From a virus: DNA of 35,435 bases. Below the pieces are notes generated by a model. It was given only the letters and a program-made list of their open reading frames with translations, searched no databases and had not been told where the DNA came from. Position 1 is the first letter of the stretch. Every line of letters starts with the position of its first letter. Location: IMG/VR virus record IMGVR_UViG_3300035698_004931, positions 1-35,435 of that record; one strand, 5' to 3'. Positions 382 through 33,258 of this stretch are shown one piece after another. A program made the translations under genes and the position numbers.

Positions 382-956
382 TGTCGCAACTTTTCCGGCA
401 GGGCGAAGTAAACGGCAATGGTGGCCTCCACGTCCGCCAACGCATTATGGAAATTGAACGTCTTACCGGGGAAACAGTGCTCGGTTAATTCTACCAATTG
501 GGGCCATTTATAGCCGTATCTGCCGGGGAGTTTTAATAAAGGGGTGTAGGCTTCCATCGTGCAAAAACAATCTCCGGGGAATTCGGGCAAATTATTGCCC
601 AACCGCCGCGATGCAATCCGCATAATCTGCGTATCGAATTTAACGTTATGACAGACTACACGCTCCGTATTGGCGAGCAATTCATCAAACATCTTTAATG
701 CAGTGTAGGGGCTTATTCCGCCGTTTTTACAATCTTCGACAGTAATTCCATGAACCTCCGTTGCGCGCTCCGGGATGGAATCGAACAGATTCGGCTCCAT
801 CAAAAGGCACGTTCTAGCCAGTTCCTTGTACCCGCTATCTTTCACGTCCAGCAGCACGGCGCCCAACTGCACTAAGTTAGGTTGACAGGGATCATATTCA
901 TCTGCTTTGAAATTGATAGTGCCCGTTGTTTCTGTGTCAAAAAACAGAGTATTCAT
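372..956 (-). CDS. DnaQ-like 3'-5' exonuclease (DEDDh family)
   Basis: The 194-residue protein has all three exonuclease motifs of the DEDDh branch of the RNase T/DnaQ superfamily. Exo I is FDTETTG with D7 and E9; Exo II is HNVKFDTQ with D108; Exo III is HNALADVEAT with H170 and D175. The family removes nucleotides from the 3' end of DNA or RNA using two metal ions. The protein is a stand-alone exonuclease domain, so it may proofread for a polymerase encoded elsewhere, trim DNA ends in recombination, or degrade host nucleic acid. An AAGGA ribosome binding site precedes the start, and ATGA overlaps the stop of the upstream zinc-finger gene, indicating coupled translation. Confidence 0.92.
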   Translation of the reverse strand: MNTLFFDTETTGTINFKADEYDPCQPNLVQLGAVLLDVKDSGYKELARTCLLMEPNLFDSIPERATEVHGITVEDCKNGGISPYTALKMFDELLANTERVVCHNVKFDTQIMRIASRRLGNNLPEFPGDCFCTMEAYTPLLKLPGRYGYKWPQLVELTEHCFPGKTFNFHNALADVEATIAVYFALPEKLRQWQ

Positions 957-1174
957 TTTAAGTTATCCTTTGCATTCGTCCACCGTCCTTCAAAAGCATT
1001 CTGGCAGGATTCTTTTTCGCATATATACAGCCCGTTTTCGTCAACAGCGCATTCGGGACAAATTATTTCCCCGCATGATTCACACTGCATTAGCCTGCCG
1101 TGGTGTTTTTCTTCACAGTATGGACACCGTCGGCGCAACCATAGAAAAAAACTTTTAATCTGTTTAATAAGCAT
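953..1174 (-). CDS. small zinc-finger protein, 73 aa (FYVE-like cysteine spacing)
   Basis: The protein begins with a basic, hydrophobic segment (residues 1-16) followed by eight cysteines spaced C-x2-C-x10-C-x2-C-x4-C-x2-C-x9-C-x4-C. This should bind two zinc ions in a cross-brace or treble-clef fold. The same arrangement, including a CG dipeptide after the fourth cysteine, recurs in three other proteins of this early operon (7477-7686, 7786-8100, 8218-8490). The layout recalls eukaryotic FYVE fingers but lacks the basic RR/KHHCR lipid-binding patch. An AAGAGGG ribosome binding site precedes the start. Its place between the primase and the exonuclease suggests a DNA-metabolism role, but the function is unknown. 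Confidence 0.8.
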   Translation of the reverse strand: MLIKQIKSFFLWLRRRCPYCEEKHHGRLMQCESCGEIICPECAVDENGLYICEKESCQNAFEGRWTNAKDNLK

Positions 1175-2709: not shown

Positions 2710-3615
2710 CTAGTAAAGCGATTTTTCATTGTCTACGGCGGTGTTATTCTCATCTGCGACAGGGCTAGATTCAACGCTATCCGGTTGGACAATAAAACCT
2801 TTCTGGAATTCTCCGGCGAGAATATCACATTCTTTCCATATTTCGACGCCCTTGGTAAGGTCGAACGTATGGACTGTGCTTCCATCTTCTCGTAAAACAG
2901 GGGCGAATACAGGCAAGGCCCAAGTACCGGAGGGATTAGTATCTTTCCTCGTGGTTACTTTCCAAGGTCGCGCCCAGCGGATATAATTTTCCTCATCGGC
3001 CACCCTGAATTTTATAATCTTTGTATTTAATTCTTTGGACACGGCCAAGAACGTGGAAGACATGGCTATAATAGCCTGCTCAACGCTGCCGTCTTCTCCT
3101 ACAATCATCCCGGCCCAGTAGGCCGTTTCAATTAGATCATTGCCGTTAGGAAGAACAGTGGCAACCTTTTTATTCTCGGCTCGATGACAGGTTTTGATCA
3201 ATTCCTTAAAGTTCTGTAAGCCATGATCCATAACCAAGCCGCCGCCCTGATTACGCGGTTCCCATTCAATCCCGGTACGAGAATAAAAGATCGGTATAAA
3301 AGTAAAGCCTTCGTTACCTTTCCATATCTTGCCGGAAGAATTAAAAAAGTCGCCGAATTCCAGGCCTGCATATATCCCGGTTACGTCGTCCAATTGCGGA
3401 GTAGTCTTTTGCGCTACCTTAATCCAAGGAAGCGCTTGATCTCCCATTTCAATTACTTCTTTAGTGGCATGTTTGGCGGATGCGCCTAAATCGATTCCCG
3501 CCGGAATGGCCGGGGCCGTGTATGTGCCCTTAGCCAATAAAGCCCCTTTTTCTTCTTTAGCGGCTGTAGTGGCTTCAACATCCTTTTTTGTGAAATCTTC
3601 GGTTTTCTTTGACAT
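2710..3615 (-). CDS. hypothetical phage protein, 301 aa, possible replication accessory factor
   Basis: The protein has a charged, low-complexity N-terminus (about residues 1-35), then a globular centre with aromatic-rich segments such as FTFIPIFYSRTGIEWEPRN, and an acidic tail ending in DNEKSLY. The core resembles in outline a common phage family with an LPWIKVAQ-type start and a W-x-P-R motif next to a GGG loop. This is recollection, not a database match. An acidic C-terminal tail next to a primase gene is what one would expect of an ssDNA-binding protein, but no OB-fold signature is clear. A purine-rich AAGAAAGAGAG site precedes the start, which lies inside the end of the upstream gene. 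Function is not assigned. Confidence 0.7.
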   Translation of the reverse strand: MSKKTEDFTKKDVEATTAAKEEKGALLAKGTYTAPAIPAGIDLGASAKHATKEVIEMGDQALPWIKVAQKTTPQLDDVTGIYAGLEFGDFFNSSGKIWKGNEGFTFIPIFYSRTGIEWEPRNQGGGLVMDHGLQNFKELIKTCHRAENKKVATVLPNGNDLIETAYWAGMIVGEDGSVEQAIIAMSSTFLAVSKELNTKIIKFRVADEENYIRWARPWKVTTRKDTNPSGTWALPVFAPVLREDGSTVHTFDLTKGVEIWKECDILAGEFQKGFIVQPDSVESSPVADENNTAVDNEKSLY

Positions 3616-4130
3616 TGATCTTGACTCTCTTTCTTAGTCTTTAAGATGGCCCGGCGCCAAGGACTGGCACCGAATATATTAAAGGGCACGTCCACGCCTT
3701 GCTTTAAGTCTTTGCGCAACGCCGCCTTTAATGACGAAGTGTTTATCGTGCTATCCAATGAGGAAGAATAGCCCATGTCTAATAATCGTTTTTGCAGTTG
3801 AACAGCGTTAGCATGTTTTTCTTTTACAAAGCCAATGCTTACCGTAGATTCTAGTAGGTTTGAATGGCCGTGCACTATTAACCATTTAGTAGCGGCTGTT
3901 TCGTCACCCGTCTTCCAGGATAATGAAAAATCTGACTTAACCTGTATGTTTACACCGTCACCATTATACCTAGTGATATTTAATGAATCCATTAAAGAGG
4001 GCAACATGTCACATTCAATATCGGCCAAGGCCGCTTTTGCTTCCTTTAACACCTCCTCTGCCACTTCTACAGCGGCGGCTTTCTCGTGATATGACGTTAT
4101 TAACTGCTGAAATGCTTGGTGTACGTTCAT
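3486..4130 (-). CDS. hypothetical protein, 214 aa, with N-terminal coiled coil
   Basis: Residues 1-45 are alanine-, glutamate- and lysine-rich and predict a coiled coil (HEKAAAVEVAEEVLKEAKAAL). The middle looks globular and ends with a conserved-looking SLKAALRKDLKQG segment near residue 140. The outline matches a widespread group of small phage early proteins with a coiled coil followed by a compact domain, but I cannot name a function. From about residue 172 the sequence becomes unusually rich in Lys, Arg, Gln and Pro. That stretch overlaps the first 130 bases of the 301-residue gene in another frame and is probably a readthrough tail. It belongs to the early operon and lies directly upstream of that gene. 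Confidence 0.65.
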   Translation of the reverse strand: MNVHQAFQQLITSYHEKAAAVEVAEEVLKEAKAALADIECDMLPSLMDSLNITRYNGDGVNIQVKSDFSLSWKTGDETAATKWLIVHGHSNLLESTVSIGFVKEKHANAVQLQKRLLDMGYSSSLDSTINTSSLKAALRKDLKQGVDVPFNIFGASPWRRAILKTKKESQDQCQRKPKISQKRMLKPLQPLKKKKGLYWLRAHTRPRPFRRESI

Positions 4131-5724: not shown

Positions 5725-6015
5725 TTACTTCCTCCTTTCTCTTGCCACTGCTTCGAGCCTTGAGTTCTCATTTTTAAGGCGCATGTTTTCGCTTAACAAG
5801 TGGCTGTTCTTCTCTTCCAATGTTTTAATATACCGCAATTTCTGCACTCTATCCTTTTCGGTTACTAAAGGAAATTCATTTTTCTCCTTTTTGAGTCGTT
5901 CAATTTCCTGCAACAGGGCGAAATGATCTTTCATAAAAGCGCTATTGTTGCGGTCTAACTCGGCAAGGGCTTCGACGTTTCCTTGATACCGTTCCCCTAT
6001 TCCTCTTTCTGGCAT
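5725..6015 (-). CDS. coiled-coil protein, 96 aa
   Basis: Residues 15-95 form an almost continuous heptad pattern rich in Leu, Glu, Lys and Asn, for example LLQEIERLKKEKNEF and SENMRLKNENSRLEA. It most likely dimerises as a coiled coil, and the spacing resembles a leucine zipper. I chose the ATG at 6015 because GGAAGGG lies 8 bases upstream; a GTG three codons earlier (6024) is possible. The start overlaps the end of the helicase gene by 19 bases, suggesting coupled translation. It could be a helicase partner, but this rests only on position. Confidence 0.7.
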   Translation of the reverse strand: MPERGIGERYQGNVEALAELDRNNSAFMKDHFALLQEIERLKKEKNEFPLVTEKDRVQKLRYIKTLEEKNSHLLSENMRLKNENSRLEAVARERRK

Positions 6016-7484
6016 TTTAACCACCCTTCCAATTTACGGCCTGTTAATTCTGATTCCACTTCAAACTTATTTAACAAGGATTCAATAATCTTTTCGTCTA
6101 TTGTGCCCGCCGCCGCCATATCTAAAAATAAGCAATGATGGGCCTGTTGTTTTGCGGCTAAAATACGCCCCTCCGCCTGTAAGCGTTCTTTAAGGTTGTA
6201 CCCATTGGAGAAAAAAATCATCTGATTAGCGTTATATAGAGAGAAGCCTATTCCCCCGCTGGCAGGGTTCGACACAAGGAAACGGACTGTTCCCTCTTGA
6301 AATTTCTGCCTGTCTGCGTCGCGCGTTCGCTTATCTGATCCGCCGTAATATGTTACAACCTGCCCACCGCCATATTCAGCGGCCAAGGCGTCCCTTATAG
6401 CCTCTATCTCTGCCCGATAAGAAGCCCATACGATAACTTGGCCCCCCAAAATTTCAATCTTACTTAGCAAAGCCGTTATCCGTGGATTAACTACATTGAT
6501 AGGCCACATAATGCCCGCCTCATCCGGCAGATATCCGCCCAACACTTGGCGCAATCGGGTGCACTTTTGAATGGCTTGGGGAGCGCTTATGTCCTTTCCG
6601 TGGAATTCCACGAGTAGGGAATTCTTGAGGTCGCTATAAAGTTCTTTTTGCGCCCCGCTCAGGACAACCGGGATTCTACCATACAGGCAGGGCGGCAAGT
6701 CGTTGCACTCTTCAGTATGAATGGTGTAAGTGTATGGGGCTATTTTCTCTTTCAACTCATGCAAATATTTATATTTTATTTTGCCCTGACTGTCGGTAGC
6801 GGGAATTATAATAGGGCGTCCCCGTCTATCCGTCTTTCCAGGTAGGGCAAATTGCTCAACGTAATGATCTTTAAATTTAGTGAAGCAATGGCCCAATAAT
6901 CCGCCACATAACCAATTATATTGTGTAAAATAATGTATGGGCTGTCCCGCTGTCCCTGTCAGGGTGCGGCGGAAATCCGCCAATTTGCCTAATCGATTAA
7001 GCGTCTTTGTTCTCGCGGCCCCCGGAGATTGGATTTGATGCGATTCATCCAACACGAACATTACCTTGTGATCTTTCAGCCATTCTCGAACAATCTTTTC
7101 GGCCCGCTTTGAAGCCGCCGAAAATGCCTCTATGTTAAAAGAAATTATGGAAAAGTCTTTTGTGTTCAACGCATCAATAAAATTATTTGAATCTTCTCCA
7201 CGCATACTGTACGCCCACCATGCCGCCTTGTGCGGTACGCACCCCGGCCAAAACTTGGCTACCTCTTCCAATATCCATTTACGATGAACTCCAGAGGGGG
7301 CCACTATGAGCAGTCCATTAATATGATTAAGGAAAGCCAAACGAGACGCATTCAGCAGGGCCACCGCACTTTTGCCCGTTTGAACGCCCATTCGTAGCAT
7401 GAAAGCCTTTTTATTCCATGATTGCCTAAAGGCTTCTTTTTGATGTTCGTAAGGCTCCCAATCAATCCGCCATTCTTTAGTCAT
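5997..7484 (-). CDS. SNF2-like DEAD/DEAH-box helicase (superfamily 2)
   Basis: The 495-residue protein has both RecA-like lobes of a superfamily 2 helicase. Walker A is MGVQTGKSA (K38), motif II is DESH (residues 146-149), motif III is TLTGTAGQP (174-182), motif V lies around SNPASGGIGFSL, and motif VI is QAEGRI near residue 436. The DESH box, the TGTAGQP and the motif V-VI pattern fit SNF2-type translocases, which many phages use as replicative or remodelling helicases. The usual motif VI arginines appear as GRILAAKQ, with only one arginine visible, so strand separation is not certain. It sits in the early operon upstream of the primase and the exonuclease. The start follows a GAGGAC site and overlaps the preceding zinc-finger gene by 8 bases. 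Confidence 0.9.
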   Translation of the reverse strand: MTKEWRIDWEPYEHQKEAFRQSWNKKAFMLRMGVQTGKSAVALLNASRLAFLNHINGLLIVAPSGVHRKWILEEVAKFWPGCVPHKAAWWAYSMRGEDSNNFIDALNTKDFSIISFNIEAFSAASKRAEKIVREWLKDHKVMFVLDESHQIQSPGAARTKTLNRLGKLADFRRTLTGTAGQPIHYFTQYNWLCGGLLGHCFTKFKDHYVEQFALPGKTDRRGRPIIIPATDSQGKIKYKYLHELKEKIAPYTYTIHTEECNDLPPCLYGRIPVVLSGAQKELYSDLKNSLLVEFHGKDISAPQAIQKCTRLRQVLGGYLPDEAGIMWPINVVNPRITALLSKIEILGGQVIVWASYRAEIEAIRDALAAEYGGGQVVTYYGGSDKRTRDADRQKFQEGTVRFLVSNPASGGIGFSLYNANQMIFFSNGYNLKERLQAEGRILAAKQQAHHCLFLDMAAAGTIDEKIIESLLNKFEVESELTGRKLEGWLKCQKEE

Positions 7485-7686
7485 TGCTGTAGTCCTCTTC
7501 GTCTAATTCGGATAGTTCAATTCTAAAAGTCTCGTCGTAGTATTCCGCACATTCAGGGCATAGGTCATACCCTCCCAATGTTTCCGGGATGTGCGAACAA
7601 TTACTGCATATACTGGCCCCGCAATAAATACAGGCCTGTATAGTGTCGAATTCATCTGTAGTAGTGCAGAAATCACATGCCCTCAT
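7477..7686 (-). CDS. soluble zinc-finger protein, 69 aa (FYVE-like spacing)
   Basis: Eight cysteines are spaced C-x2-C-x11-C-x2-C-x4-C-x2-C-x12-C-x2-C, enough for two zinc ions. The central CIYCGASICSNC block and the following PETLGGYDLCPEC resemble the FYVE finger core but lack the basic lipid-binding motif. The tail is acidic (SELDEEDYSND). The sequence is close to the finger of 8218-8490: both have a His after the sixth cysteine, then a P-x-(S/T)-L stretch and a final C-x2-C followed by YYD. Unlike that protein it has no membrane segment. GGAGG precedes the start, and the gene overlaps the helicase gene by 8 bases. A helicase-linked role is plausible but unproven. Confidence 0.8.
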   Translation of the reverse strand: MRACDFCTTTDEFDTIQACIYCGASICSNCSHIPETLGGYDLCPECAEYYDETFRIELSELDEEDYSND

Positions 7687-7740
7687 TTTACAGCCTCCGC
7701 TTAAGTCTAACAGTTATATTTTACCGCAATCAACGGCCCA

Positions 7741-7770
7741 ATTACATTGATTTGCATAAGGCTTTATCAA
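7741..7770 (-). promoter_or_regulatory. possible secondary early promoter
   Basis: The 99-base gap before the 69-residue zinc-finger gene contains TTGATA (7765-7770) and TGTAAT (7741-7746) with an 18-base spacer. A second weaker option is TTGGGC with TATAAC (7713-7741). Either could boost helicase and primase expression separately from the membrane-protein genes. The match is moderate, so the call is tentative. Confidence 0.35.
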
Positions 7771-7785
7771 CTGCCGGAAGGGTCA

Positions 7786-8100
7786 TTATTCATTTCGCGG
7801 CAAACTCCCGAACTTCCCATGCGCGCATTTTATAGAGCATAAAGCAGCGGAGGACGTGCTTACCATGCCTTGATAACAATTAGGGCACATTAATTCTCCG
7901 CATATAACGCAAGGTCTGACGGCTTTATATGGATGCACCGCGCCGCAATCACACCGCCGATTCAACTGAAAGGGCCTTAGACTAAGCAAATAGCGCCCAT
8001 CCTTTGGATGGGTTAAGTAATAGCAAATCCAAATGATAAATAAAACGCCTATCTGCATTACTATAAATATGCTTAAAGCGATGTAATCAGTAGCAATCAT
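7786..8100 (-). CDS. membrane-anchored zinc-finger protein, 104 aa
   Basis: Residues 5-30 form one hydrophobic segment (YIALSIFIVMQIGVLFIIWIC), followed by a short linker and a cysteine domain with spacing C-x-C-x11-C-x2-C-x4-C-x2-C-x12-C-x3-C. The layout of one N-terminal membrane helix and then a FYVE-like finger is the same as in the protein at 8218-8490, so the two are tandem paralogues. I chose the ATG at 8100 because GAAAGGAAAAG lies just before it; a longer version starting at 8139 would add 13 unlikely residues. Its start lies inside the end of a 44-residue membrane peptide gene. The finger is probably cytoplasmic, but the topology is inferred. Confidence 0.8.
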   Translation of the reverse strand: MIATDYIALSIFIVMQIGVLFIIWICYYLTHPKDGRYLLSLRPFQLNRRCDCGAVHPYKAVRPCVICGELMCPNCYQGMVSTSSAALCSIKCAHGKFGSLPRNE

Positions 8101-8221
8101 TATTCTTTTCCTTTCGTGTAATTTTATAAGAGCGCCCAAGCCAAACGGCCCCCTCTACAAGGAATATAATGACCGTCGCGGCCCCAATAAGAAACGTACC
8201 TATTACAATAAAATCAATCAT
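8087..8221 (-). CDS. small membrane protein, 44 aa
   Basis: This short frame encodes one hydrophobic segment (IVIGTFLIGAATVIIFLV, residues 5-22) and a basic tail (YKITRKEKNNDCY). Its ATG overlaps the TGA of the preceding zinc-finger gene as ATGA, and it overlaps the start of the next zinc-finger gene by 14 bases, so it is embedded in the operon. Its start resembles that of the 31-residue membrane peptide at 8487-8582 (an F near residue 3-4, a G near residue 7-8, then aliphatic residues). The two probably belong to duplicated pairs of membrane peptide and membrane zinc finger. Confidence 0.65.
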   Translation of the reverse strand: MIDFIVIGTFLIGAATVIIFLVEGAVWLGRSYKITRKEKNNDCY

Positions 8222-8490
8222 TGTTCTTTTACTTTCGCGGGCCTCTCCCCTCCGTCATAATATGGGATGCAATCATCACATACAACAACGCCCGTAAGGG
8301 ACTTTGGATAGTGCTGGCAGTTTGGGCAAACCGTTTTTCTACAAACAGAACACCTCTGCAAATCCTTAGAGGGCCACCGCGCGCCGCAAGAACACCGAAT
8401 AAGATCAAACTTAAACAGGCTGTAGGCCACGACGCCTAAACCAGCACAAATAAGAGCGGCGGTCGTGTATATCACTACATACTCAATCAT
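8218..8490 (-). CDS. membrane-anchored zinc-finger protein, 90 aa
   Basis: One hydrophobic segment (residues 3-25, VVIYTTAALICAGLGVVAYSLF) precedes a cysteine domain with spacing C-x-C-x11-C-x2-C-x4-C-x2-C-x12-C-x2-C. The finger is similar to those at 7477-7686 and 7786-8100. I placed the start at 8490, where AAGGAGGAAGGGCC precedes ATG; an upstream ATG at 8598 would add 36 residues encoded by a different gene's bases. The ATG overlaps the TGA of the 31-residue peptide gene, and its own TGA overlaps the ATG of the 44-residue peptide gene, so the chain appears translationally coupled. The tail is basic (GERPAKVKEQ). Confidence 0.8.
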   Translation of the reverse strand: MIEYVVIYTTAALICAGLGVVAYSLFKFDLIRCSCGARWPSKDLQRCSVCRKTVCPNCQHYPKSLTGVVVCDDCIPYYDGGERPAKVKEQ

Positions 8491-8582
8491 GGCCCTTCCT
8501 CCTTGGAAACAAAAAATCCTACCACTACGTGAACTACTCCGACGACGACCACTAGGGCCATTCCTAATAAAACAAATTCCAT
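8487..8582 (-). CDS. tiny membrane peptide, 31 aa; first gene of the early operon
   Basis: The frame encodes almost nothing but a membrane helix (FVLLGMALVVVVGVVHVVVG, residues 3-22) and a short KEEGP tail. It has a strong GGAGGTAATTAAT ribosome binding site and lies about 40 bases downstream of the predicted early promoter start point, so it is the first translated gene. Its stop overlaps the start of the membrane zinc-finger gene as ATGA. The coding bases also carry the ribosome binding site of that gene. Such tiny genes are easily missed by automatic annotation. Confidence 0.65.
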   Translation of the reverse strand: MEFVLLGMALVVVVGVVHVVVGFFVSKEEGP

Positions 8583-8620: not shown

Positions 8621-8635
8621 CTAAACTTAGTTTAC
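8621..8635. promoter_or_regulatory. left operator
   Basis: CTAAACTTAGTTTAC is a near-perfect palindrome whose minus-strand reading is GTAAACTAAGTTTAG. It covers the -10 box and presumed start point of the leftward early promoter. The same motif appears at 8945-8959 in the same relation to the other promoter, so one protein, probably the regulator at 8961-9179, could bind both. Confidence 0.65.
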
Positions 8636-8712: not shown

Positions 8713-8869
8713 CCTATAATGCGCACGGGAACAGTTTCAATAATAACTAGTAGTTAAAACATAACTTGATAGGTGGGTGATTGACACAGCACATAATCAG
8801 TAGTGGAACGGGATTTTTTCAATACTACAAATCCTTATTATTAAAACATACCTACGTGTGCATTATAGG
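8713..8869. repeat. imperfect inverted repeat, 34-35 base arms
   Basis: The left arm (8713-8746) reads CCTATAATGCGCACG, six bases, then GTTTCAATAATAA. The right arm (8835-8869), read on the minus strand, is CCTATAATGCACACG, seven bases, then GTTTTAATAATAA. Each block differs at only one position. The centre near 8791 coincides with the midpoint of the two operators and the two promoters. The TATAAT within each arm lacks a good -35 partner, so these may be binding sites for a second protein rather than promoters. Confidence 0.6.
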
Positions 8870-8922: not shown

Positions 8923-8951
8923 TTGACACGCTGACCAAATATAAGTAAACT
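8923..8951 (+). promoter_or_regulatory. rightward promoter of the regulator gene
   Basis: TTGACA (8923-8928) and TAAACT (8946-8951) are separated by 17 bases, the optimum. The expected start point falls 2-5 bases before the ATG at 8961, so the transcript would have almost no leader. No ribosome binding site precedes that ATG. TATACT at 8955-8960 is an alternative -10 element but would start transcription inside the gene. Confidence 0.65.
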
Positions 8952-8959
8952 AAGTATAC
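8945..8959. promoter_or_regulatory. right operator
   Basis: GTAAACTAAGTATAC is a palindrome with one mismatch and the same half-site (GTAAACT) as the left operator. It covers the -10 box and start point of the rightward promoter, a position suited to autorepression by the gene that follows. Confidence 0.6.
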
Positions 8960-8960
8960 T

Positions 8961-9179
8961 ATGGAAAGCCAAAATCAAATAAACACTGTGGATGAATTGA
9001 AAAAAGCCATTACTGACCTTGGGTGCAACACGCATTCTTTTTCTGAATTATTGAGTAAACACGGTATCGAAGTTTCTAAACAGGCTGTGTGGAAATGGAC
9101 ACGAAATAAAACGCATAAAATACCCTGCTATATTGGGTATTTTTTAAGAAAAGAGTTTGGAATATTGAAACAGAGTTAA
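8961..9179 (+). CDS. Cro-like helix-turn-helix regulator
   Basis: The 72-residue basic protein contains a helix-turn-helix at about residues 27-50: FSELLSKHGIEVSKQAVWKW, where SKQAVWKW has the pattern of the recognition helix in Cro and YdaS-type proteins. It is the only convincing plus-strand gene. It stands opposite the early operon with a shared control region and ends in its own terminator, which is the usual setting of a phage repressor or Cro-like switch protein. The absence of a ribosome binding site and the promoter position suggest a leaderless mRNA, as with lambda cI from its maintenance promoter. Whether it represses the early operon, itself, or both cannot be told from sequence. 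No larger repressor partner is visible. Confidence 0.82.
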   Translation: MESQNQINTVDELKKAITDLGCNTHSFSELLSKHGIEVSKQAVWKWTRNKTHKIPCYIGYFLRKEFGILKQS

Positions 9180-9197: not shown

Positions 9198-9236
9198 GGG
9201 GCGAGAAACTCAGTTTCTCGCCCCATTTTTTATTTA
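9198..9236 (+). terminator. intrinsic terminator after the regulator gene
   Basis: A perfect 12-base stem (GGGGCGAGAAAC with GTTTCTCGCCCC, 9198-9224) has a 3-base loop and is followed by ATTTTTTATTT. This is a textbook rho-independent terminator for the plus strand. It also overlaps the presumed end of the late minus-strand transcript (stop at 9234), but the minus-strand side lacks a good U-tract. Confidence 0.92.
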
Positions 9237-30505: not shown

Positions 30506-30739
30506 CTATATTACAGTACCGGGAGGGAGTGGGTCTAATTGAAGGGATTCTCTTAGCAGTTCATCTGTAACGGGCACTCTGTCGGCCTTTTCCACGTCTA
30601 TTAAATTATTGCGGCATAGTTGGCCCGCCCGTACTATCCATGCTTTCGACTGGCCCCATGTGGCGGGGGAATCATCATAAGCATCCCGGTAAGCATTTAT
30701 CCAACCTATGGCCTGTTTAACATTCATCTTTTTAAGCAT
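30506..30739 (-). CDS. hypothetical protein, 77 aa
   Basis: A small helical protein with three tryptophans in the first half (GWINAYRDAYDDSPATWGQ). I do not recognise it. Its ATG overlaps the stop of the MuF-fusion gene, suggesting coupled translation, and it ends just before the candidate promoter for the scaffold gene. Confidence 0.6.
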   Translation of the reverse strand: MLKKMNVKQAIGWINAYRDAYDDSPATWGQSKAWIVRAGQLCRNNLIDVEKADRVPVTDELLRESLQLDPLPPGTVI

Positions 30740-33258
30740 TATTTAATACTCCGCATTAGTGATTCAAACTTACTCGATACTCCCGGCGTGAAATACTCGA
30801 ATATCTTTTTGAATAATGGCCCATACGTTTTATGGGTAGTCAGCGGCCAATACTGCGCCCATGCCTCCATCGATTGCATGGGGTAGCGTGTCGTAGAGCC
30901 TAAATCACGCACCCGGTACTTGTTAAAATAGTCGGCGGAGTGACCGAAACCGATCTTTGTTTTAGTCATAGCGGCAAAGTAATCGTTTAAGGAGCCGTAT
31001 AGATCATTTTCTACGCTGCTATAACCGCCAACTAATCCCCGCGCGCTACGCAAGAAAGACCGGGCGTCCTTCTTTTCAATGGCGGCAATCAACTCGGCGC
31101 GGTCGCCTATAACCGGGGCCATCTGCTTTAATTCAATATCAGTGAAAGGATTATTTCCGGCCTTTCTCGTAGCCTTTATCTTATCGTCAAGAGCGGCCAT
31201 CTTATCCGGGGCCTTGTCGTATGTGCTTTTTGTCCAAGAGGCCTTTTTTGCTGCATTGTACTTATTCATTGTACTCTTAGAACGGGCTATCATTCGTTTG
31301 ATTGATACGGCCCTGCTATCAACATACTTAAACGTTGTAGACTGCTGCATTACATAAGCAATCTGCTCAATGTCAGCATTGCGCATCTGCCGCAATATGC
31401 TAAGGTAGTCTTCCGCTTGCCCTTTTCCATGCATCATTACCTTTAAGAATTCTAACTGCGTCTTTCGAGTGGCCCCCGGCATTCCTTGCACTACTCGAAC
31501 CCATGCGAACTCTTTCTTTTCGAGCACGGCTTCTACATTGCCTAATAGCGTCCGCGCCGCCTTATCAATCTCCTCATGAGCAGCACATGACAAGCCGGGC
31601 ATGTTGGCAAGCCTTGTGCCCTGCAATACTTGAGTATTGGTCATATCGATATGATGCATAGTCTCATGGAGCATCGTTAAGGATTGATCCTCATAACTAC
31701 CCTTCACCATCTGTATAGTTCGACTCGATGGCAAATAACGAGAAGGTTTACTGGAGACTTCGTCAACGATGGCATTCAACAGCGGCGCCTTATCCACTAT
31801 GCTTCGTAGCCGATCATCATAATTCACCAACGCCCCTTGCAACTTATCCCGAACGTCTATATTTTGCTTTTTGAGTGCGGGCATAATGCCTGTTTTAGTA
31901 ACAGGCTTCGGCTTGGGAACAGGCTTCGGCTTGGGCTTCGGCTTGGGCTTGGGCTTCGGCTTGGGCTTCGGCTTCGGCTTGGGCTTCGGCTTGGGCTTCG
32001 GCTTGGGAACAGGCTTCGGGGCCGGGGTCGTTTTCGGTAGGCTCTTTTTCACATAGGCGCCAAGGTTCAACGGACGACCAGAGTTATCGGTCAGTTGCCG
32101 CACGTTTTTTATGCGGCCCTCTTTCCATAGTTCCTGTCGTCTTGGGCCAAGGGCTTCTATTTGGCGGGCCTCCGATTGATCTTTCAACCATGCGTTATAA
32201 TCGGTTTCTCTTGCTACGGCCCCATCCATTGCCGCCCGTGTCTTGCCCTTCATTGTATCAATCTGAGCGTCACTGAATCCGCGCTTTTTCAACCGCTCTC
32301 TATACCGTTTTTGGAAAGTGGTATTTTCAATTTTCTTTCCTGACAACTCCGCCCAAGATGCTGTAACGGGGTTAAGTGTGCTACGACAAGCCCAGTGTCG
32401 GGGAGGGCCATAGTGCAGACCACCGTAAGCGTCAGTATTGGCGAAAGCCTTATCATGCCCAACCGGGCGATAGTCCACGCCGTCCTTATTGTGAACGATA
32501 AGCCACGTCAGGCCGGAATATGACTTGCAAATATTGGTAGTGCTAGAATCCAACGTAGAAATCTGTTGAACCTTCTTGATGACTTGAGCGCTGCCCTTGT
32601 CAGTGTACAAATCCCGGCGGGCCTTATTTGCCACCGCCTGCACGGATGTTCTAACCAAGGCGGCAGCGTCCCGCTGATATTTTTTCATGAGACCAGCACT
32701 AGGCGGGGCTGTTAACACGCCGTCTTTATATTTGCCCTTCGCTGTGCCACGAATCCGCCGGATGATTTGGGCGTTGGTCTCCCCGGACAGTACCCCGGTT
32801 CTTACCGCTGCTTCAAACTTATTTTGCAAGCCTATTTTTTGCCTGCTCCACCATTGCGAAGATGGAGCGCCAGCAATAAGCGTACCATCCACCGACGCCT
32901 TAACTACCCGTGGATCAAGGCGAACCGATAGGATGGGTGAACCGATAGCGTGATTTATTACATTTTTTGCATAAGTTTTTTCGGTCTCGTAGACAGTTCT
33001 AAGAGCCTTTAATCGGGCTGTGCTTATAGTCTTATAATTACGGGCTATTGTGGCCCGTGTCTGTTGTAGGAGGGCTTCTGTTCGTGCAGCATTAAAGGCC
33101 GTCAGTTTCTTTGAGCCTCTAAGCGTTGCAATAAGTTCTTTCTCTACTTTACGCAGTGCGGTCAACGTTTTTTTACGCTCTGACTCAGACAATCTGTCCA
33201 AAGTAATAGCGTGTAAATTAAAATCATCCCGTATAACATCATTGACCGCTTTAACCAT
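30739..33258 (-). CDS. MuF-like head protein fused to a putative zincin metallopeptidase domain
   Basis: The 839-residue protein has three parts. Residues 1-310 are a MuF-type minor head domain with a helical start and a characteristic end: STLDSSTTNICKSYSGLTW, then YGGLHYGPPRHWACRSTLNP. Residues about 405-455 are a lysine-proline dipeptide repeat linker. Residues about 470-839 hold LHETMHHIDM (H531, E532, H535), the HExxH zinc-peptidase motif; a possible third ligand is E798 in MEAWAQYW. MuF-fused effector domains carried in the virion and injected with DNA are known in some phages, and this is a good candidate. The gene follows the portal, as MuF genes do. Whether the peptidase is active is inferred only from motifs. 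Confidence 0.85.
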   Translation of the reverse strand: MVKAVNDVIRDDFNLHAITLDRLSESERKKTLTALRKVEKELIATLRGSKKLTAFNAARTEALLQQTRATIARNYKTISTARLKALRTVYETEKTYAKNVINHAIGSPILSVRLDPRVVKASVDGTLIAGAPSSQWWSRQKIGLQNKFEAAVRTGVLSGETNAQIIRRIRGTAKGKYKDGVLTAPPSAGLMKKYQRDAAALVRTSVQAVANKARRDLYTDKGSAQVIKKVQQISTLDSSTTNICKSYSGLTWLIVHNKDGVDYRPVGHDKAFANTDAYGGLHYGPPRHWACRSTLNPVTASWAELSGKKIENTTFQKRYRERLKKRGFSDAQIDTMKGKTRAAMDGAVARETDYNAWLKDQSEARQIEALGPRRQELWKEGRIKNVRQLTDNSGRPLNLGAYVKKSLPKTTPAPKPVPKPKPKPKPKPKPKPKPKPKPKPKPKPKPVPKPKPVTKTGIMPALKKQNIDVRDKLQGALVNYDDRLRSIVDKAPLLNAIVDEVSSKPSRYLPSSRTIQMVKGSYEDQSLTMLHETMHHIDMTNTQVLQGTRLANMPGLSCAAHEEIDKAARTLLGNVEAVLEKKEFAWVRVVQGMPGATRKTQLEFLKVMMHGKGQAEDYLSILRQMRNADIEQIAYVMQQSTTFKYVDSRAVSIKRMIARSKSTMNKYNAAKKASWTKSTYDKAPDKMAALDDKIKATRKAGNNPFTDIELKQMAPVIGDRAELIAAIEKKDARSFLRSARGLVGGYSSVENDLYGSLNDYFAAMTKTKIGFGHSADYFNKYRVRDLGSTTRYPMQSMEAWAQYWPLTTHKTYGPLFKKIFEYFTPGVSSKFESLMRSIK
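31904..32018 (-). repeat. lysine-proline codon repeat
   Basis: About 115 bases of repeated AAG-CC(N) codons in the MuF-fusion gene encode a KPKP linker of about 38 residues. The two variants AAGCCC and AAGCCG alternate irregularly. The stretch is a likely hotspot for length variation, and the rigid extended linker separates the head and peptidase domains. Confidence 0.92.

Follow-up and report, generated by a model that had tools for sequence, protein, structure and literature searches.

Small FYVE-like zinc fingers, multiplied and partly joined to predicted membrane helices, in a putative early operon of a phage

Four small proteins of the phage analysed here (A, B, C and D) belong to the known small prokaryotic binuclear treble-clef fingers, which in this phage are FYVE-like, multiplied and, by hydropathy, membrane-anchored. 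Three of them (B, C and D) are encoded in one block, and we regard it as quite possible, if somewhat short of probable, that their expansion supplies membrane-tethered protein-docking adaptors, which hold a host (or phage) protein in host takeover or exclusion. The window, i.e., the whole stretch of DNA that was analysed, is the entire IMG/VR record IMGVR_UViG_3300035698_004931 (35,435 bases); the record may be a fragment of a larger genome, and its portal protein is closest to those of Variovorax, Xanthomonas and Pseudomonas phages (about 38%). The features of the region are as follows:

8961 to 9179, plus strand: putative regulator of 72 aa, divergent from the finger block; a similar ORF occupies the same place in the sister phage L004
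8629 to 8656, minus strand: promoter-like site TTGACA-16-TAAACT, 47 nt ahead of the block's first ORF, a consensus match only
8622 to 8635, no strand: palindrome TAAACTTAGTTTAC covering the -10 box, a possible operator, with a matching copy at 8945-8958
8487 to 8582, minus strand: 31-aa membrane-only ORF (MEFVLLGMALVVVVGVVHVVVGFFVSKEEGP) with GGAGG upstream, KD 2.94, probably coding
8218 to 8490, minus strand: D, 90 aa, predicted membrane helix at residues 5-23 and FYVE-like finger at residues 33-74; an ORF with the ribosome site AAGGAGG
8087 to 8221, minus strand: 44-aa membrane-only ORF, sharing an ATGA overlap with D and a 14-nt overlap with the start of C
7786 to 8100, minus strand: C, 104 aa, predicted N-terminal membrane helix at residues 7-25 followed by a FYVE-like finger; paralogue of D
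7477 to 7686, minus strand: B, 69 aa, soluble FYVE-like finger with an acidic C-terminal tail; an ORF with an AF2 model
5997 to 7484, minus strand: superfamily II helicase (SNF2/ResIII type; phrog_62, E 4.5e-80; Pfam), the operon's next gene
953 to 1174, minus strand: A, 73 aa, an ORF with the same type of finger, between primase and exonuclease

Read from the promoter-like site, the order is 31-aa ORF, D, 44-aa ORF, C, B and helicase, with A further on, and most junctions of the block are ATGA or short overlaps: the stop of the 31-aa ORF, the first gene of the block, overlaps the start of D, and the 3' end of B overlaps the start of the helicase by 8 nt. This layout, together with the gene content, suggests that the finger block is expressed early. 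The 72-aa putative regulator, which matched no Pfam family, has a TTGACA-17-TAAACT site of its own, and matching palindromes of the TAAACTTAGTTTAC type lie over both -10 boxes, that of the block's promoter-like site and that of the regulator. The two membrane-only ORFs, interleaved with the fingers, had not been listed in the original prediction. A longer start for D (ATG 8598, 126 aa) was ruled out because good ribosome sites are present both at the 31-aa ORF and at ATG 8490.

All four proteins carry the pattern C-x(1-2)-C-x(10-11)-CxxC-x4-CxxC-x(9-12)-C-x(2-4)-C. The spacings C1-C2/C2-C3/C4-C5/C6-C7/C7-C8 are 2/10/4/9/4 in A, 2/11/4/12/2 in B, 1/11/4/12/3 in C and 1/11/4/12/2 in D, with two residues inside the C3-C4 and C5-C6 pairs throughout, and the fingers probably bind zinc. 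A loose regular expression for the pattern, applied to the six frames of the window, returned exactly these four places and gave 0 matches in 200 dinucleotide-preserving shuffles of the window, which confirms the four patterned ORFs of the original prediction, all on the minus strand. The core CxxCG-x3-CxxC, which had been noted in two of the proteins, is present in three (A, B and C), and a closing CxxC followed by YYD is found in B and D but not in A and C.

It had also been proposed that the four fingers represent one expansion, which holds for B, C and D and is doubtful for A. A tblastn search with D against its own genome recovered B (3e-8) and C (6e-8). When non-cysteine residues were shuffled with the cysteines kept fixed, the similarity was significant for B-D (p = 2e-4), C-D (4e-4) and B-C (0.007), with p = 0.017 for A-C, 0.04 for A-D and 0.27 for A-B, and A was no closer to B, C or D than some unrelated phage fingers are. 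Since the similarity of B, C and D exceeds that of the cysteine-preserving shuffles, these three are, on sequence comparison, true paralogues, whereas A is not separable from unrelated fingers; B, C and D share about 35% identity and have kept all eight cysteines. Traces of duplication are also left in the DNA: a 20-nt stretch at the start junction of the 44-aa ORF recurs with 90% identity at that of C, and an 18-nt stretch over the first CxC matches at 89% between D and C. We read this as local duplication having produced B, C and D; A would be either an ancient copy or have been acquired separately. The best matches of A are to one domain of a Drulisvirus protein about 650 aa long (phrog_6980, E 0.0013).

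The usual view of FYVE domains is that they are membrane-targeting modules of eukaryotes, and in human cells FYVE fingers dock proteins on membranes. The phage fingers share with FYVE (PF01363; EEA1, Vps27, Hrs, RUFY1) the order of the eight cysteines, the CxxC-G-x3-CxxC core and the predicted fold. An AlphaFold2 model of B, based on an alignment (A3) of the four window proteins and 13 phage, archaeal and bacterial fingers (17 members), reached a pLDDT of 82.6 (85-94 over a 50-residue core). Foldseek placed FYVE structures at all of ranks 1-9 (E 0.017-0.13, probability 0.98-1.00), and in VIA ranks 1-20 were all FYVE or Rab-effector FYVE-like (Z 4.1-6.4), among them melanophilin (Z 6.4) and Vps27 (Z 6.3, rmsd 2.8 over 56 residues), ahead of PHD (Z 3.7 or lower), RING and LIM, the first classical RING structures ranking below both FYVE and PHD. 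The model of D, built from the four window proteins alone and of modest confidence (pLDDT 63.5), gave the same ranking as B, its best structural matches being FYVE and FYVE-related Rab-effector fingers (Z 3.3-4.6); its best Foldseek match, EEA1, was not significant (E 0.21), and a Foldseek search against viral predicted structures returned nothing at 1e-3. For both models, no Foldseek match fell below 1e-3 and no VIA Z reached 8. The comparison with FYVE and RING folds thus put FYVE-like structures first for B and for D alike, as the original prediction had it, and the prediction supports a FYVE-like fold, closest to FYVE and FYVE-related fingers.

Sequence profiles likewise put FYVE proteins first. 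Searched against PDB sequences, A3 matched RUFY1 (2.4e-5) and EEA1 (2.6e-5) best, followed by the RING of RNF4 (1.8e-4), a preference for FYVE over RING that is partly built in because the added members were picked by FYVE-like spacing, and cysteine-rich profiles score high against each other. Pfam FYVE was matched by 9/17 members of A3 (best 1.1e-5), and none of the four window proteins singly reached a Pfam cut-off (A scored 11.4 bits for PF01363 against a gathering score of 27.8; B, C and D had no PF01363 match), so that the profile search placed none of them in a known Pfam family. Nothing useful for the fingers was returned by NCBIfam or PADLOC, and no PADLOC defence family was recognised among the finger proteins. 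The FYVE spacing CxxC-x(9-39)-CxxC-x4-CxxC-x(n)-CxxC is present, with a first pair of C-x1-C in C and D and a longer last pair in A and C. By contrast with FYVE, the RR/KHHCR lipid patch is missing, as had been noted, and so are WxxD and RVC: none of the motifs WxxD, R(R/K)HHCR and RVC occurs in A, B, C or D, and the C6-C7 loop has 9-12 residues versus 16 in EEA1. We therefore speak of a FYVE-like fold and not of a FYVE domain, since the lipid-binding motifs are missing and no Pfam cut-off was reached. To our knowledge, a phosphoinositide target is not expected in bacteria.

FYVE_2 or Rab-effector fingers (melanophilin, RIM2, Slp4, rabphilin) are among the 20 best structural matches of B, and RAB GTPases are the partners of the FYVE_2 domains in RIM, rabphilin and melanophilin (PMC11231147). 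Judged from the models, the phage fingers are no less similar to Rab-effector fingers than to lipid-binding FYVE domains, although the former are flanked by long helices and the phage finger stands alone or follows a single membrane helix. Among prokaryotes, the account by Burroughs, Iyer and Aravind (2011), as cited in PMC4506424, reportedly deals with binuclear treble clefs (Prok-RING, B-box, AN1, LIM), which are likewise small binuclear fingers. Prokaryotic B-boxes have roles in folding, stability and proteolysis of membrane proteins (PMC4506424). A-D differ from the Prok-RING, B-box, AN1 and LIM families in that they reached none of the Pfam cut-offs and do not show the ligand patterns of RING, PHD, LIM or B-box: the C3HC4 pattern of RING, C-x2-C-x(9-39)-C-x(1-3)-H-x(2-3)-C-x2-C-x(4-48)-C-x2-C, the histidine that is the fifth ligand of PHD (C4HC3), and the LIM and B-box ligand patterns are absent from all four. 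The standalone fingers of Hadarchaeota and other phages (e.g., L294, L320, L375) fall into the same eight-cysteine spacing class and give profile matches of 1e-5 to 1e-9 and better.

The prediction that two copies are membrane-anchored is borne out by hydropathy. Strongly hydrophobic segments are found in C, D and the two small ORFs, and C and D each begin with a hydrophobic helix (Kyte-Doolittle 19-mer maxima of 2.69 and 2.02) of at least 19 residues with a charge bias: in D and C, as in the 44-aa ORF, the net charge is -1 ahead of the helix and +2 behind it. The helix of C and D would thus lie N-out/C-in in the membrane, and, by the positive-inside rule applied to this charge bias, the fingers would face the cytoplasm, a compartment in which free thiols and zinc binding can plausibly be expected. 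The N-terminus of A is short and basic/hydrophobic (MLIKQIKSFFLWLRRR) and may be amphipathic. When the membrane segments of C, D, the 31-aa ORF and the 44-aa ORF were compared, no convincing homology emerged, the best pair being the 31-aa ORF and C (p 0.01 before correction for six pairs). In other records an anchor is rare: a membrane helix beside the finger was seen only in L054 (C-terminal) and L277, in which the finger also follows a hydrophobic N-terminus, and the finger of L324 has a shorter hydrophobic start.

Close relatives of C and D were not found in IMG/VR, nor were close relatives of the 7.0-9.3 kb region or of any of the fingers among 50,697 phage records; against plasmids, C gave only HypD and other weak matches. 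Weak phage matches (Gordonia Ziko gp140, Eggerthella LE2-3, Sinorhizobium) lacked the finger pattern wherever this was examined and were put down to chance. Initial pattern scans of the whole collection were dominated by low-complexity, cysteine-rich reading frames and gave no usable frequency. Proteins with CxxC-x11-CxxCG-x3-CPxC are common in IMG/VR (at least 119 stretches), and about 60 of the 80 open-frame matches listed were, by eye, plausible fingers. Of 24 other virus records scanned whole, several of them fragments, 19 had a match and none a second one at 1e-3 or better, versus four matches in the 35 kb analysed here; that the others have no more than a single clear copy agrees with the earlier view that the expansion is unusual. 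In cellular genomes, the finger profile matched 9/28 Hadarchaeota, 0/369 Gammaproteobacteria, 1/289 genomes of the class of Methylobacterium (Alphaproteobacteria), the matching frame holding stops, and 1/398 genomes of the phylum. The helicase of the sister phage L004 is 52% identical to that of the window, but there the regulator and the helicase are 333 nt apart (about 1.5 kb in the window), with no finger between them and none on the rest of the 17-kb contig. The finger block is therefore an accessory cassette.

Small anchored proteins tether replication in some other phages, and the fingers might similarly bring helicase, primase and exonuclease to the inner membrane, a reading that we consider rather doubtful. 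The overlap of B with the helicase start and the position of A between primase and exonuclease would fit it, as would the lone fingers of other phages, which lie near replication or recombination genes in 5/7 loci looked at (within about 5 kb of DNA polymerase in L364 and L284, DNA ligase in L320, Erf/NinB in L298 and a polymerase processivity factor in L277). Such proximity is weak evidence, however, because in early regions replication genes stand side by side with accessory genes unrelated to them. Recruitment of the replication machinery to the membrane, put forward in the original prediction, is weakened, since L004 keeps the regulator-helicase arrangement with the same helicase and without the block, and a finger was likewise not found next to the primase/helicase genes of DSL-LC04, 023Pt_psg01, ct3Et533 and DMU1.

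That the proteins are generic small phage zinc fingers, i.e., independent accessory proteins with a role unrelated to membranes, whose duplication here came about by chance and means little for function, is in our view unlikely: the commonness of such fingers in IMG/VR, several of which A resembles as much as it does B-D, speaks for it, but three diverged paralogues have retained the eight cysteines, two of them anchored, and second copies are lacking in the other virus records scanned. It seems highly improbable that they target a bacterial ubiquitin-like conjugation system as a RING-like E3 or substrate adaptor, as the RING domains of MAT1, RNF4 and NOT4 among the weak sequence matches and a weak Pfam match of Prok-RING_2 to C (0.0054) might suggest; C3HC4 spacing and a RING-first structural ranking are both wanting, and the part of the window searched against family libraries showed no recognisable E1, E2 or ubiquitin-like gene.

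Under the adaptor reading that we prefer, a small binuclear zinc finger of the FYVE-type treble-clef fold would have been multiplied in tandem in this lineage specifically to give B, C and D, which form a cassette between an early promoter and the helicase gene. The N-out/C-in helix of C and D would anchor them in the inner membrane and present the finger to the cytoplasm, B being the soluble form. As in the FYVE-related Rab-effector fingers, the fingers would dock proteins, with the helix replacing phosphoinositide binding; protein docking is likelier than lipid binding because the lipid-binding residues of FYVE are absent. Presumably made first after infection, the proteins would retain or sequester at the inner membrane a protein of the host (or of the phage). 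A role directed at the host (takeover, exclusion or counter-defence) seems to us likelier than a core one in replication, since these genes open the unit and a relative does without them. The closeness of lone fingers elsewhere to replication genes counts against a host-directed role.

The presence of a FYVE-like fold without lipid motifs in phages and Hadarchaeota is relevant to the question of whether the fold preceded its lipid function or evolved more than once. It is conceivable, if rather unlikely in our estimate, that the FYVE-type fold of phages and archaea predates phosphoinositide binding and has here been multiplied and joined to a helix as an early membrane-docking system; if so, the helix would do the job of eukaryotic lipid recognition. 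If they are made first after infection, small proteins that combine a transmembrane segment with a finger would offer a compact handle on phage action at the inner membrane.

Standalone fingers of the same class as those of the window, with similar eight-cysteine spacing, were found by profile search in nine of the 28 Hadarchaeota genomes searched. These archaeal proteins (L375, L376, L379-L382, L385 and L386) are 61-80 aa long and follow the pattern RCSVCGREFPE..CYECGKAYCPEC...GVCPDCEE. Among phages, finger A, the eight-cysteine protein encoded between the primase and exonuclease genes, showed weak similarity (phrog_6980, E 0.0013) to a stretch near the C-terminus of the roughly 650-aa Drulisvirus protein encoded by gene 10 of Klebsiella phage VLC1 (L246). 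In IMG/VR, L410 and L470 encode phage proteins, 425-443 aa long, that carry CxxC knuckles in long tandem runs.

Outside the fingers, the following reading frames were annotated:

1183-2700, primase, matching Pfam AEP-TOTE (4.2e-12) and the primase family phrog_21866
2710-3615 and 3486-4130, two proteins akin to gp34 and gp33 of cyanophage Pam3
30739-33258, an 839-aa reading frame with a long PKPKPKP repeat in mid-protein

The Pam3-related frames overlap, sharing 3486-3615. The Pfam family matched by the primase takes its name from TOTE conflict systems.

Around the small putative regulator gene (8961-9179, plus strand), divergent to the block encoding fingers B, C and D, the following elements were identified:

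8622-8635 and 8945-8958, near-palindromic TAAACTTAGTTTAC sites, each covering one -10 box in a divergent pair of promoter-like sites
8713-8727 and 8855-8869, between these sites, a 15-nt inverted pair, CCTATAATGCGCACG / CGTGTGCATTATAGG
9198-9224, plus strand, directly 3' of the regulator gene, a strong terminator-like hairpin (12 pairs, then a T run)

The near-palindromes and the inverted pair together probably constitute the operator region of this putative regulator.
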